Notes under the pieces: model-generated
The model's input: only the letters and a program-made list of their open reading frames with translations
What the model was told of the DNA's origin: nothing
The model's database searches: none
Translations under genes and position numbers: made by a program
Assembly: GCF_900021175.1 (NCBI RefSeq)
Contig: NZ_FCOP01000010.1
Span: forward strand, 124,001 to 188,000
Length of the DNA: 64,000 bases
Direction: 5' to 3'
Origin: Pseudenterobacter timonensis
Lineage (GTDB): Bacteria; Pseudomonadota; Gammaproteobacteria; Enterobacterales; Enterobacteriaceae
Shown: piece by piece, positions 6,107-36,878 of the stretch
Numbering within the stretch: the stretch's first letter is position 1
Layout of the letters: each line of letters opens with the position of its first letter

Positions 6107-7107
6107 CTAAGCCCATCGTATTTAGCGGCGCACAGCCCTCAGGTGAACTGACCATTGGCAACTACATGGGTGCGCTGCGTCAGTGGGTGAACATGCAGGA
6201 TGATTATCACTGTATCTACTGCATCGTTGACCAGCATGCCATCACCGTGCGCCAGGATCCGCAGCAGCTGCGTAAAGCGACGCTGGATACCCTGGCGCTC
6301 TACCTGGCCTGCGGTATCGATCCTGAGAAAAGCACCATTTTCGTTCAGTCTCACGTGCCGGAGCACGCGCAGCTGGGCTGGGCGCTGAACTGCTACACCT
6401 ATTTCGGCGAGCTGAGCCGCATGACCCAGTTCAAGGACAAGTCGGCGCGCTACGCGGAAAACATTAACGCCGGGCTGTTTGACTATCCGGTGCTGATGGC
6501 CGCCGATATCCTGCTCTACCAGACCAACCTGGTGCCGGTGGGGGAAGATCAGAAGCAGCATCTGGAGCTGAGCCGCGATGTCGCCCAGCGCTTTAACGCC
6601 ATCTACGGCGACATCTTCAAGGTGCCGGAGCCGTTTATCCCGAAATCGGGCGCGCGCGTGATGTCTCTGCTGGAGCCGACCAAAAAGATGTCCAAGTCTG
6701 ACGATAATCGCAACAACGTTATCGGCCTTCTGGAAGATCCGAAGTCGGTGGTGAAAAAAATCAAACGTGCGGTGACTGACTCCGAAGAGCCGCCGGTTGT
6801 GCGTTACGACGTGAAAGAGAAGGCGGGCGTCTCTAACCTGCTGGATATTCTCTCGGCGGTGACGGGTCAGCCGATCCCGGAGCTGGAGCAGCACTTCGAA
6901 GGCAAGATGTATGGCCATCTGAAGGGCGAAGTAGCGGACGCGGTATCCGGCATGCTGACCGAGCTGCAGGAGCGTTATCACCGTTACCGCAATGATGAAG
7001 CCTTCCTGCAGAAGGTAATGAAAGAAGGCGCGGAAAAAGCGAGCGCGCGCGCCTCTGAAACGCTGAAAGCGGTCTACGAAGCGATTGGGTTTGTAAGTAA
7101 ACCTTAA
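6103..7107 (+). CDS. trpS: Tryptophanyl-tRNA synthetase
   Basis: TrpS is a class Ic aminoacyl-tRNA synthetase that charges tRNA-Trp. The HIGH-like motif is TIGN (17-20), just after the PSGELT loop, and the KMSKS motif is exact at 195-199. At 334 residues it has the usual bacterial length. It is the last gene of the dam superoperon, overlaps gph by four bases, and is followed by a REP palindrome and a terminator. Confidence 0.98.
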
Positions 7108-7116
7108 GCCTGTTTT

Positions 7117-7142
7117 GCCGGGTGGGCTGATGCTTACCCGGC
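7117..7142. repeat. Single REP-type palindrome
   Basis: GCCGGGT and ACCCGGC arms flank a GATG-containing centre, the classic layout of an enterobacterial REP (PU) element. It sits right after the trpS stop, upstream of the transcription terminator. Such elements often stabilise upstream mRNA or bind DNA gyrase or Pol I. Confidence 0.75.
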
Positions 7143-7201
7143 TTATGGGACCGACGGCGAAGCCGCAGGTAAAAGCAAAACGTTTATCGTGCCGCCCAAA
7201 T

Positions 7202-7230
7202 AAAAAAACCGGGAATTTCCCGGTTTTTTT
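7202..7230. terminator. Bidirectional rho-independent terminator, trpS / yhfL
   Basis: CCGGGA and TCCCGG arms are bordered by a run of A on the left and of T on the right. It can therefore terminate both rightward trpS and leftward yhfL transcription, which converge here. Confidence 0.9.
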
Positions 7231-7246
7231 ATGTCCGCATAAAGGC

Positions 7247-20185: not shown

Positions 20186-20590
20186 ATGCAAGCGCGTGTG
20201 AAATGGGTAGAAGGTTTAACGTTTCTTGGCGAGTCCGCTTCAGGGCATCAAATCCTGATGGATGGCAACTCCGGTGATAAAGCCCCCAGCCCGATGGAGA
20301 TGGTGCTGATGGCGGCCGGCGGCTGCAGCGCCATTGACGTGGTGTCGATTCTGCAAAAAGGGCGCCACGAGGTGACCGATTGCGAAGTGAAGCTGACCTC
20401 GGAGCGTCGTGAAGAGGCACCGCGCTACTTCACGCACATTAATTTGCACTTCGTGGTGACCGGCAAGGCGTTGAAGGATGCCGCCGTTTCGCGCGCGGTG
20501 GACCTCTCTGCGGAGAAGTACTGCTCCGTAGCGCTGATGCTGGAGAAAGCGGTAAACATTACGCACTCGTATGAAGTGATTGAGGCTTAA
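20186..20590 (+). CDS. yhfA: YhfA, OsmC-family protein
   Basis: This is a 134-residue member of the OsmC/Ohr superfamily. Two conserved cysteines are present in the expected segments, AAGGCSAIDV and EKYCSVALML, suggesting thiol-dependent peroxide chemistry, but the substrate of YhfA is not known. The start at 20186 follows GGAG at 20173-20176 and gives the E. coli length; an upstream in-frame ATG at 20153 adds eleven residues with no family match. Confidence 0.93.
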   Translation: MQARVKWVEGLTFLGESASGHQILMDGNSGDKAPSPMEMVLMAAGGCSAIDVVSILQKGRHEVTDCEVKLTSERREEAPRYFTHINLHFVVTGKALKDAAVSRAVDLSAEKYCSVALMLEKAVNITHSYEVIEA

Positions 20591-20642
20591 TGCTTTGGAG
20601 GGTGGCGCTTCGTCGGTCTACCCTACAAAAGCACAAACGCAG

Positions 20643-20668
20643 GCCCGGTAAGCGCAGCGCCACCGGGC
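20643..20668. repeat. Single REP-type palindrome between yhfA and prkB
   Basis: GCCCGGT and ACCGGGC arms surround AAGCGCAGCGCC, a REP-like unit related to the large array at 30.1 kb. It sits in the 85-base gap between the convergent yhfA and prkB genes. Confidence 0.75.
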
Positions 20669-20675
20669 AAATAAC

Positions 20676-28600: not shown

Positions 28601-29218
28601 ATGACCACAACATATCGACCGCACGACCTTATCTGGCTTAACGCGCGTGATGCGCTGGAAGGTATCACCGAATCCTGGGTGGATGAGGTGTGGCATGCCG
28701 GCCTGCCGGTGGTGGTGCGTCGGGATGTTGATGGTGATAACCGTATTCCCGTCGGCGTGCGTGGCTTAAAGCGCCACCAGCGCGCGGCGGGATGGGTGAA
28801 GCCCGACGCCGTGGTGCGCGTGGTGTCCCCCGAAACGCTGGGCGAGGCATCGTTGCTGCTGCGCTCGTCCTTTATTTCTCAGCCCCCGGTTCAGGTAGCC
28901 CTGCAGCTTGCGCAGCAGGCGTGGCCGTGGACGTGGGGTATTACCGGCAGCACAGGTTATGCGCTGGCGACCGGCATTCCGGTTATTCATGCCGCCAGCG
29001 ATCTCGATCTGCTGATTCGCGCCCCGCAGCCTCTGGCGCGCGACGCGCTGGCTGTCTGGCAGGATGCGCTTGAAAATGCGCTCTGTCGCGCCGATACCCA
29101 GGTGGATACGCCGGAAGGCGGTTTTGCGCTGGCGGAGTGGCTGCGCGACGGAAAAACGCTGCTGAAAACAAGCCGTGGACCGCGTCTGGCGACCGATCCG
29201 TGGCGCAGGGAGGAGTGA
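28601..29218 (+). CDS. mdcG: Phosphoribosyl-dephospho-CoA transferase (holo-ACP synthase)
   Basis: MdcG attaches the triphosphoribosyl-dephospho-CoA made by MdcB to Ser25 of MdcC, releasing pyrophosphate. The 205-residue protein shows the nucleotidyltransferase-like GSTGY followed by DLD at 134-136, the expected catalytic acidic pair. I start at the ATG at 28601, two bases after mdcF, rather than an upstream frame opening at 28550 inside mdcF. The stop overlaps mdcH by one base (TGATG). Confidence 0.95.
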   Translation: MTTTYRPHDLIWLNARDALEGITESWVDEVWHAGLPVVVRRDVDGDNRIPVGVRGLKRHQRAAGWVKPDAVVRVVSPETLGEASLLLRSSFISQPPVQVALQLAQQAWPWTWGITGSTGYALATGIPVIHAASDLDLLIRAPQPLARDALAVWQDALENALCRADTQVDTPEGGFALAEWLRDGKTLLKTSRGPRLATDPWRREE

Positions 29219-30114
29219 TGAAAATCGTTTTTACTTTTCCAGGGCAGGGAACGCAGCATGCGGGCATGCTGCAGAATCTGCCGGGAGATGAGATGGCGCA
29301 GGCGCGCGAGGTACTGGGCGCAGAAACCGATACGCTTGATTCACCCGCCGCGCTGGAGCATACCCGCGCGGTACAGCTCTCTCTGCTGATTGCTGGTGTC
29401 GCCTGGGCGCGCGAGCTTGAGCGGCGCGGCGTGGCGCCGGATATTGTCAGCGGTCTTTCTATCGGGGCGTATCCGGCGGCGGTGGTCGCAGGCGCGCTCG
29501 ACTTTACCGACGCGCTGCGGCTGGTCGCGCTGCGCGGCGATTTGATGGAGCAGGCCTACCCGCACGGCTACGGCCTGACGGCGATTATGGGGCTCACCCT
29601 GCCGCAGGTGGAAACGCTGATTGAGGGGACTGGCACCTATATCGCCAACCTGAACGCCGAAACGCAAATTGTTATTGCCGGAACGGACGAAGGGATGGCA
29701 CAGGTGGCGGAACGCGCGCTGGCGAAAGGGGCGAGCAAAGCCCGTCGCCTGGCGGTGAGCGTTCCGTCGCATTGCGAATTGCTTCACGAGCCGGCCCTTA
29801 AGCTGGCTGAGGCTTTCAGCCGGGTAACACTCTCTCGTCCCCGCTGCGCCTGGCTGAGCGGCAGCACCGGACGCGTGCTGTGGCAGCCGGAAAAAATCGC
29901 CGACGATCTGGCGATGAATATGGCCCGCACGGTGCGCTGGCAGGAGGCGATGATTTCCGCCAGCGAACGTGACGGTCGGCTGGCAATTGAGATGCCGCCC
30001 GGCGGCGTGCTCACCTGCCTGACGCGCCAGGCGGCCTGGAAAGGGGAGGCTATCTCTCTGGAGCGCAGCGGCGTGGATGTGGCGGTGCATCTGGCGAAGC
30101 GGCTGAGCGCGTGA
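29218..30114 (+). CDS. mdcH: Malonyl-CoA:ACP transacylase
   Basis: MdcH loads malonyl from malonyl-CoA onto the carrier and so primes the cycle. It is a FabD-like acyltransferase with the N-terminal FPGQGTQ, the nucleophile Ser81 in GLSIGAY (FabD proteins usually have GHSLG), Arg106 and His185 in VPSHCELL. The length is 298 residues from the ATG at 29218; an ATG at 29137 within mdcG is rejected. It is the last gene of the operon, followed by the REP array. Confidence 0.95.
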   Translation: MKIVFTFPGQGTQHAGMLQNLPGDEMAQAREVLGAETDTLDSPAALEHTRAVQLSLLIAGVAWARELERRGVAPDIVSGLSIGAYPAAVVAGALDFTDALRLVALRGDLMEQAYPHGYGLTAIMGLTLPQVETLIEGTGTYIANLNAETQIVIAGTDEGMAQVAERALAKGASKARRLAVSVPSHCELLHEPALKLAEAFSRVTLSRPRCAWLSGSTGRVLWQPEKIADDLAMNMARTVRWQEAMISASERDGRLAIEMPPGGVLTCLTRQAAWKGEAISLERSGVDVAVHLAKRLSA

Positions 30115-30120
30115 TCTGTT

Positions 30121-30638
30121 GCCCGGTGGCGCTTCGCTTACCGGGCCTACGGGTAGCGGTGTGTTTGATTTGCAGGCCGGGTAAGACGCAACGCGTCGCC
30201 ACCCGGCAATTTGCCCGGTGGCGCTTCGCTTACCGGGCCTACGGGTAGCGGTGTGTTTGATTTGCAGGCCGGGTAAGACGCAACGCATCGCCACCCGGCA
30301 ATTTGCCCGGTGGCGCTTCGCTTACCGGGCCTACGGGTAGCGGTGTGTTTGATTTGCAGGTCGGGTAAGACGCAACGCGTCGCCACCCGGCAATTTGCCC
30401 GGTGGCGCTTCGCTTACCGGGCTTACGGGTAGTGGTGTGTCTGATTTGTAGGCCGGGTAAGACGCAACGCGTCGCCACCCGGCAATTTGCCCGGTGGCGC
30501 TTCGCTTACCGGGCCTACGAGTAGTGATGTGTTTGATTTGTAGGCCGGGTAAGACGCAACGCGTCGCTTACCGGGCTTACGGGTAGTGGTGTGTCTGATT
30601 TGTAGGCCGGGTAAGACGCAACGCGTCGCCACCCGGCA
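30121..30638. repeat. Tandem BIME array: six REP-pair units, 92-bp period
   Basis: Units begin at 30121, 30213, 30305, 30397 and 30489, an exact 92-base period, and a sixth unit is 30 bases shorter. Each unit has two opposed palindromes: one with GCCCGGT...ACCGGGC arms around GGCGCTTCGC, the other with GCCGGGT...ACCCGGC arms around AAGACGCAACGCGTCGCC, joined by a spacer of about 25-30 bases. The units differ by few bases. The sixth lacks the segment between two TCGC motifs. The array fills the gap between convergent mdcH and mdcR; no gene or separate terminator is needed to explain the 529-base gap. Confidence 0.95.
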
Positions 30639-30643
30639 AGCGG

Positions 30644-31576
30644 TCAGACAAGATCCTGCAAACTGCGCGCGTACATGCGCCCTTCCGCGGCCAGCGCCCG
30701 CAGGCTGGGGTCCTGCTCGCGATTGCGGGCAAAGACAATGGCAATAAGCTGCTGCATCTGATAGGGCTCAGCGAGCTTCAACAGTTGCAACGAGTTTTCA
30801 TAAACTTTTTTCATTCTGCCGGGCATCAGAGTAAATCCCACTCCGGCCTGCACCAGGCTTAACATCGAAAAAATGTCGTTAACCCGGGTGACAATCTCCG
30901 GCTCAAATCCGGCGATATGAAACGCTTCCTGAAAACCTGCATAGGTGGCAAACCCTTCCGCCAGCGCGACAAATTTCTGATCTTTATAATCCCGCAAATC
31001 GGCAAGCTCGCGGGTGTTAAGCGTGGCGGAGGCGGGAGCGGCCAGAAAAATATCGTCATGAAACAGCGGAAGTACCTCCAGGCTGTTACGATCGATATCG
31101 CTCTCGGAGATAGAGATGAGAATGGCATCCAGCGACCCCTCCTGCAGCATATGCAGGAGCATATCGTTGGAGCCCATCGTCAGATCCATTTCAAGGTCCG
31201 GGCGGCGCAGCTTCATTCCCATGATCAGCCGCGGCACCGTTTCCAGCGTCAGCGAATAGAGCGTGCCGACGCGCAGACGACCCTGGCCCACGCCAGCGAC
31301 TTTGCGCGCCTCTTCCAGCCCGCGATCGAGGATCTGCGCCATCTCCTGGCAATACTCCAGCAGTGTCCATGCTGAGGGGAGCGCGATCAAATTACGGCCT
31401 TTATGGGTGAACAGCGGGCAACGGACGTTCTCTTCCAGCGTGTGAAGCGCGCGATGCACGCTCACGCCGCTCAGATTCAGCGCCTCTGCGGTGCGCGCAA
31501 TTGTCCCTTTTTCCATAAAGGTCATGAATATAACGAGTTTACGAACGGTAAGGTCATTGTTTATGTCGAAACTCAT
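30644..31576 (-). CDS. mdcR: LysR-type regulator of malonate genes
   Basis: MdcR is a 310-residue LysR-type regulator. The helix-turn-helix is near residues 18-40 (FMTFMEKGTIARTAEALNL), followed by the effector-binding domain. In K. pneumoniae MdcR activates the mdc operon with malonate and represses itself. Here it is convergent to mdcH and separated by the BIME array, rather than divergent from mdcA, so it must act on a promoter about 7.5 kb away. It starts 15 bases downstream of the yheS stop. Confidence 0.93.
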   Translation of the reverse strand: MSFDINNDLTVRKLVIFMTFMEKGTIARTAEALNLSGVSVHRALHTLEENVRCPLFTHKGRNLIALPSAWTLLEYCQEMAQILDRGLEEARKVAGVGQGRLRVGTLYSLTLETVPRLIMGMKLRRPDLEMDLTMGSNDMLLHMLQEGSLDAILISISESDIDRNSLEVLPLFHDDIFLAAPASATLNTRELADLRDYKDQKFVALAEGFATYAGFQEAFHIAGFEPEIVTRVNDIFSMLSLVQAGVGFTLMPGRMKKVYENSLQLLKLAEPYQMQQLIAIVFARNREQDPSLRALAAEGRMYARSLQDLV

Positions 31577-36290: not shown

Positions 36291-36878
36291 ATGAAAGTAG
36301 CAAAAGACCTGGTGGTCAGCCTGGCCTATCAGGTACGTACAGAAGACGGTGTATTGGTTGATGAGTCTCCGGTGAGTGCGCCGCTGGACTATCTGCATGG
36401 TCACGGTTCCCTGATTTCCGGCCTGGAAAACGCGCTGGAAGGCCATGAAGTCGGCGACAAATTCGACGTAGCTGTGGGCGCGAACGACGCTTACGGCCAG
36501 TATGACGACAACCTGGTTCAGCGTGTGCCTAAAGATGTATTCATGGGCGTTGACGAGCTGCAGGTGGGTATGCGCTTCCTGGCGGAAACCGATCAGGGTC
36601 CGGTACCGGTTGAAATCACCGAAGTTGAAGATGACCACGTTGTGGTTGATGGCAACCACATGCTGGCTGGCCAGAACCTGAAGTTCAACGTTGAAGTGGT
36701 AGCGATTCGTGAAGCGACCGCTGAAGAGCTGGCTCATGGGCACGTTCACGGCGCGCACGGTCATGACCACGATCACGACCACGGTCACGACGGCTGCTGC
36801 GGCGGTCACGGCCATGATCACGACCACGAGCACGGCAAAGGTGGTTGCGGCGGTCACGGCGGCTGCGGTTGCCACTAA
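36291..36878 (+). CDS. slyD: Peptidyl-prolyl isomerase SlyD, nickel metallochaperone
   Basis: SlyD is an FKBP-type isomerase and chaperone that also passes nickel to hydrogenase maturation proteins. The 195 residues include an FKBP domain (1-70 and 129-150) interrupted by an insert-in-flap chaperone domain, then a His/Cys-rich metal-binding tail from about 150 (repeated GHDHDHDH, CCGGHGHD, CGGHGGCGCH). AGGAG precedes the start, and a shared terminator with slyX follows. Confidence 0.97.
   Translation: MKVAKDLVVSLAYQVRTEDGVLVDESPVSAPLDYLHGHGSLISGLENALEGHEVGDKFDVAVGANDAYGQYDDNLVQRVPKDVFMGVDELQVGMRFLAETDQGPVPVEITEVEDDHVVVDGNHMLAGQNLKFNVEVVAIREATAEELAHGHVHGAHGHDHDHDHGHDGCCGGHGHDHDHEHGKGGCGGHGGCGCH

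Follow-up and report, generated by a model that had tools for sequence, protein, structure and literature searches.

A tandem REP-pair array between mdcH and mdcR of Pseudenterobacter timonensis, a known kind of element very probably copied in place

The window analysed here, a stretch of 64,000 nucleotides, lies on a contig of the 4.2-Mb draft genome of Pseudenterobacter timonensis (13 contigs; G000 in our genome set). Two convergent genes, mdcH and mdcR, are separated in it by 529 bp, and an array of six head-to-tail REP-pair units with a period of 92 bp (about 522 bp in total) fills nearly all of this gap (Table 1). The name mdcR was given in an earlier sequence-only reading of the locus and is based on the position of the gene beside the mdc genes. 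Among named relatives, the closest MdcR proteins come from Enterobacter and Lelliottia (91-92% identity; own-species records were possibly excluded from this comparison). Single REP-like heads occur in two more convergent gaps of the window, an exact match at 20590-20675 and a match to a looser pattern only at 7107-7246. The window also holds a short tandem repeat of periods 12 and 51 (36749-36860) within a predicted gene (36291-36878); its codons read as a His-rich tail, metal-binding in appearance.

Table 1. Genes and repeat units of the mdcH-mdcR interval, in window coordinates
Feature	Position	Strand	Basis
mdcH, malonate decarboxylase epsilon subunit, left convergent gene	29218..30114	+	TIGR03131 malonate_mdcH, 310 bits (cut-off 297.9)
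Array of six units	30119..30639		TRF and unit comparison
Unit 1 (U1): REP-A head GTAG (minus strand, 30147-30150), linker, REP-B head GCAG at 30172	30119..30210		TRF and unit alignment
Unit 2 (U2): 1 difference from U1	30211..30302		Unit comparison
Unit 3 (U3): 1 difference from U1	30303..30394		Unit comparison
Unit 4 (U4): REP-A head GTAA, REP-B head GTAG	30395..30486		Unit comparison
Unit 5 (U5): 81 nt, 3' end missing, GTAG on both heads	30487..30567		Unit comparison
Deletion junction U5/U6: 30 bp gone between TCGC repeats, one chimeric palindrome remains	30564..30571		Unit comparison
Unit 6 (U6): 72 nt, 5' end missing, identical to U4 across 72 nt	30568..30639		Unit comparison
mdcR, LysR-type regulator, right convergent gene	30644..31576	-	PF03466 and PF00126; adjoins mdc genes

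The architecture of the array is well defined. At 30119-30567, TRF reported a 92-bp period in 4.9 copies (96% matches, score 828), and an additional row of period 62 bp at 30498-30629 corresponds to the shortened last step. Together with the unit comparison, this confirmed what had been proposed from the letters, namely six units, a 92-bp step and a last step that is 30 bases short at a TCGC motif. An array of 522 bp with 96% matches cannot have arisen by chance. In a full unit, a leftward REP-A is followed by a linker and a rightward REP-B. The two opposed palindromes that had been attributed to every unit are present in each of U1-U4; at the U5/U6 junction, a chimeric palindrome is common to both units, with an RNA fold of -26.7 kcal/mol (30535-30585). 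Taken together, U5 and U6 are exactly 30 nt short, and the stretch that was lost is the inter-unit palindrome; five placements of the deletion are possible, since TCGC flanks both sides. The heads of the 12 REPs are GTAG (7/12), GCAG (three) and GTAA (two), and every complete unit retains at least one GTAG head.

Comparison of the units reveals the order in which variants are shared. U2 and U3 differ from each other at two positions; U4 differs from U1, U2 and U3 at four, five and five positions, as does U5, which in turn differs at four positions from both U4 and U6. U1-U3 have in common the GCAG head on REP-B (TGCAGG), and TAGTG and TGTAGG are common to U4-U6. The proposed division into two groups of three therefore holds for U1-U3 and for these two motifs of U4-U6. 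It does not hold for the TTACG...TGTCTG variants, which are confined to U4 and U6, as is the GTAA head on REP-A; U5 lacks these variants and stands four differences away from the identical U4 and U6. U4 and U6 are identical though not adjacent, which points either to at least one copying event that spanned two or more units or to conversion.

The mdc array belongs to a known kind of element, the BIME-2-like (tandem REPIN) arrays, and is of the enterobacterial GTAG class; in itself it is ordinary. Its REPs are imperfect palindromes of 20-40 nt with a GTAG-type head in alternating orientation, several consecutive extragenic units occupy a gap between convergent genes, and the REP is present in high copy (176 exact GYAGGCCSGGTAAG sites in 4.2 Mb, 89 + 87; the reversed control gave 0). 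The genome also codes for a RAYT (TnpA-REP) transposase, which may act on the REPs of the array. The assignment of the locus to REP pairs in a BIME-type array was thus borne out. By eye, the letters of REP-A equal those of the RAYT-linked REP of Citrobacter koseri in Table 1 of PMC2817692.

Common linker motifs are a feature of E. coli BIMEs. BIME-2 elements of E. coli and other enterobacteria share with the mdc array two inverted REPs alternating in tandem, intergenic location, GTAG-class heads and a RAYT in the genome; the linker of the mdc array, in contrast, is locus-specific. Near-identical REP doublets repeated together with their flanks are also described for Pseudomonas fluorescens SBW25, where a second mechanism was inferred for tandem REPIN clusters that include flanking sequence (PMC3116915). 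Unlike those clusters, which comprise at most four REPINs, the mdc array is made of enterobacterial dimorphic REPs, counts six units and lies away from the RAYT gene. The REPtron of the same genome (tnpA-REP with flanking REPs, G000:C11:1434774-1435655) has the REP-A letters in common with the array, whereas the array is on a different contig and contains no transposase gene. No Rfam family exceeded its gathering score in 29500-31200, and megablast against E. coli genomes gave no match to the array. In a plasmid collection, 11 records carried short REP pieces (joined coverage at most 33%). A narrow literature query found no paper joining malonate decarboxylase, REP and Enterobacter, which does not imply a wider absence.

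The search for a RAYT gene, suggested as a check in the sequence-only reading, was successful. NCBIfam NF047646 (cut-off 80 bits) matches it at C11:1434880-1435278 (L147:1875-2366), scoring 188 bits. Over residues 1-162, the protein of 163 aa aligns with E. coli TnpA-REP (PDB 4er8; E = 1.8e-81), and the aligned region reads HMH and YIYINP. The gene is intact and flanked by REP pairs, in which REP-A is letter-identical in three of four copies, with the head altered in the last. Judging by their reading frames, its neighbours are presumably a peptidase T-like and a cupin-like gene. The gene is intact, REP-flanked and TnpA-REP-like, and we therefore regard it as part of an ordinary RAYT-REP system. 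PF01797 found no RAYT in this genome (it matched in 8 of the 61 genomes of the genus), and a Pfam scan of the protein returned 0 families; given the NF047646 and 4er8 matches, Pfam alone yields a false negative here, and the reading of the array as RAYT-less was rejected. GCAG heads were counted by eye at 19 of the 100 listed REP places (of 176) and also occur beside the RAYT gene. This weakens the argument that units with dead GCAG or GTAA heads were copied and that RAYT was thus unneeded.

To see where REPs sit between genes, we took gap orientation from a simple hexamer gene finder and excluded REP-like heads within predicted genes. The baseline of 150 gaps (40-1499 nt, in 304 kb) consisted of 94 tandem, 33 divergent and 23 convergent gaps. 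The 100 listed REP places fell into 63 distinct gaps, 35 of them convergent, 28 tandem and none divergent (versus baseline, p = 6.9e-9 for convergent and p = 4.4e-6 for divergent gaps). Nine gaps lie outside this tally: at least two loose-pattern heads were found in five convergent gaps and one tandem gap, and a single such head in one convergent, one tandem and one divergent gap. The latter, L222 (C10:7320-7525), holds the sole REP-like match in a divergent gap, to the loose pattern. In the listed set, clusters of at least five heads were convergent in 6/7 cases versus 29/56 for smaller ones (p = 0.12), and three further clusters, chosen for their resemblance to the mdc array, were all convergent (3/3). 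These observations suggest that arrays may be tied in particular to convergent gaps. The preference of REPs for convergent gaps is itself already in print (PMC1525189).

The history of the array can be followed in the 61 genomes of the genus (our own and 60 others). A 24-base linker pattern that includes the REP-B head, searched with up to three mismatches, occurs six times in our genome, always within the mdc array, and three times in the 60 others, each with three mismatches and on contigs or at places other than mdcR. MdcR was detected in 51 of the 61 genomes (E <= 1e-100), each of which gave a readable mdcH-mdcR junction, including G060, G074 and G061, in which MdcR is broken or partial. 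Measured between fixed codons, our junction spans 553 nt; of the other 50, 46 span 19-140 nt, three reach 1.9-2.9 kb and the remaining one has 262 nt. Among the 51, 17 junctions are REP-free at 19-20 nt, one has 30 nt, 16 (48-87 nt) contain one REP or a remnant, and 12 (100-140 nt) comprise nine headed REP pairs (single orthologous pairs are found, for example, in G075, G001 and G006), two degenerate ones and one run of N. The 262-nt junction (G084) bears a small independent run with five heads. Between-species variation in REP number is likewise seen in named relatives: Citrobacter, Kluyvera, Salmonella and Enterobacter have single pairs, others such as Buttiauxella have a junction without a REP-length gap, and one Enterobacter sp. 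(L038, 205 nt) combines several REP pieces in a longer, mixed run. The variation shown is between species; the collections searched yielded no second strain of P. timonensis. REP runs at the mdc junction are thus rare, not unique. Since the linker is confined to the array in the genomes searched (apart from the three hits at three mismatches) and relatives mostly have no REP, one REP or one pair, the array grew in place, by multiplication of a single, older pair within its own lineage. The proposed stepwise duplication is accordingly upheld, as a local process, by the linker search, the junction survey and the unit comparison.

Several junctions deserve separate mention. In G084 (L161), the 262 nt are a run of REP-B copies, and G083, whose MdcR is identical, has one pair in 106 nt (draft assembly); this is array growth between two close genomes. 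In seven gaps (L089, L092, L094, L095, L096, L153 and L154), the second REP is gone directly after the linker and the mdcR stop follows, a recurrent clean loss of one REP half. The three longest junctions (L148, L149 and L150, from G027, G009 and G008; 1.9-2.9 kb) are taken up by other DNA.

Arrays with locus-specific spacers are found elsewhere in our genome and in relatives, where they reach nine copies (L116, L118, L121 and others). An array of period 93 with 5.1 copies (L144:1648-2120, G000:C13), also scored as 187-bp double units, lies between convergent genes, the left of which reads as argS-like.

RAYT exceeds the NF047646 cut-off in 27 of the 61 genomes, with an internal stop in that of G084. 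Exact REP-head counts range from 86 to 350 with RAYT (n = 27) and from 0 to 239 without it (n = 34, of which G060, G032 and G016 are <90% complete); the ranges overlap, and counts are higher with RAYT (Mann-Whitney p = 5.5e-9, kinship ignored). At junctions of 21-999 nt in 30 other genomes, a headed REP (at most three substitutions) is present in 17/17 genomes with RAYT and 4/13 without (Fisher p = 5e-5, kinship ignored). Against a role in upkeep count the REP-free junctions of 19-20 nt, which occur in five genomes with RAYT as well as in 12 without. Several headless gaps still form a strong stem-loop (G081, G016 and G078, for example), while G014 and G005 do not. The MdcR tree, built from the 48 (of 51) rows longer than 280 aa, is poorly resolved and leaves our genome on an open fork; therefore, the tests ignore kinship.

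With regard to function, the array had been proposed as a terminator or insulator between the convergent genes, or as a gyrase or IHF site. No intrinsic terminator (GC stem plus T run) was found in 29900-30900, with 1.1 sites expected in shuffles, so that termination of this type is not supported, and the same interval gave no sigma-70-like promoter. The IHF consensus is WATCAANNNNTTR. No exact WATCAANNNNTTR is present on either strand of the array (the best site has two mismatches), so the IHF proposal is not supported, and the array shows no exact IHF site between REPs of the kind that characterizes BIME-1. REPs are known to protect RNA 3' ends. Candidate functions of an array placed between convergent genes are the stabilization of RNA 3' ends, attenuation through Rho and the binding of gyrase. 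Rho-dependent termination and gyrase binding are reported for REPs and BIMEs, and binding and cleavage by DNA gyrase for BIME-2 of E. coli (PMC2817692 and PMC6463007).

Taken together, the evidence makes it very probable that a BIME-2-like array of known kind was copied in place from a pair between mdcH and mdcR. The original REP pair would have been placed by the RAYT transposase lineage, and unequal recombination or replication slippage between the tandem units would then have raised the copy number, with at least one step copying more than one unit, or conversion. Slippage between TCGC repeats may account for the one 30-bp loss that removed the inter-unit palindrome. An alternative in which TnpA-REP itself drove the growth, by repeatedly cleaving and joining single-stranded REP units at the mdc site, could draw on the intact RAYT with same-class REPs at its flanks, on the GTAG head kept in each complete unit and on the higher head counts of RAYT genomes. 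We consider it unlikely: the copies include the locus-specific linker and keep an exact 92-bp period, and one head reads GCAG in each of U1-U3 and GTAA in each of U4 and U6, although GCAG is common beside RAYT. In PMC8266576, E. coli TnpA-REP is reported to be intolerant of GTAG changes. It is still harder to credit that assembly error turned a shorter or longer array into six units. Several 16S copies are expected in such a genome. The assembly is a 13-contig draft in which two 16S genes were found (26 of 98 first-look candidates scored), so that the unit number could be an assembly product, and one relative (G022, L096) has a run of N exactly in the mdcH-mdcR gap. Nevertheless, the array carries ordered private variants and a private deletion, beyond what simple mis-joining would invent, and similar arrays exist in relatives' genomes of one to five contigs (e.g. 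G035, G061, G084, G030, G009 and G079).

A further alternative is that the length of the array is adaptive. Six units could form a strong gyrase-loading, Rho-attenuating insulator that separates mdcH and mdcR transcripts and supercoils. The excess of convergent and lack of divergent gaps among REP places, the convergent setting of large clusters (with the three chosen for likeness) and the published convergent-gap preference and gyrase binding (PMC1525189, PMC6463007 and PMC2817692) agree with such a role, as do the very stable folds of both array strands (raw energies of -283.0 and -257.7 kcal/mol). This explanation is nonetheless quite improbable. A third of the junctions (17/51) are REP-free and most of the rest hold a single REP or pair; mdcH-mdcR therefore functions without an array, and the mdc genes probably have no need of six copies. 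Moreover, large clusters are not significantly more convergent than smaller ones. Under local copying of an ordinary pair, transcripts running past mdcH or mdcR would end in stable stem-loops that may protect 3' ends and aid Rho-dependent attenuation, and the array DNA may bind gyrase. Such effects would be generic to REPs, and tolerance of the six-fold dose is more likely than selection for it.

Across related genomes, a single gap has now been seen without a REP, with a single REP or pair, with a small run and with six tandem pairs, so that array growth becomes readable at one site. The comparison of 61 genomes further offers a testable connection between REP upkeep and the presence of the transposase. 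It is possible, if doubtful, that the REP state at the mdcH-mdcR junction follows the transposase and that in RAYT lineages the pair can run up into arrays, as in G084 and in our genome. If so, the host would select the bare stem-loop, RAYT would maintain the GTAG head and the pairing, and the mdcH-mdcR gap would serve as a natural clock of REP upkeep.
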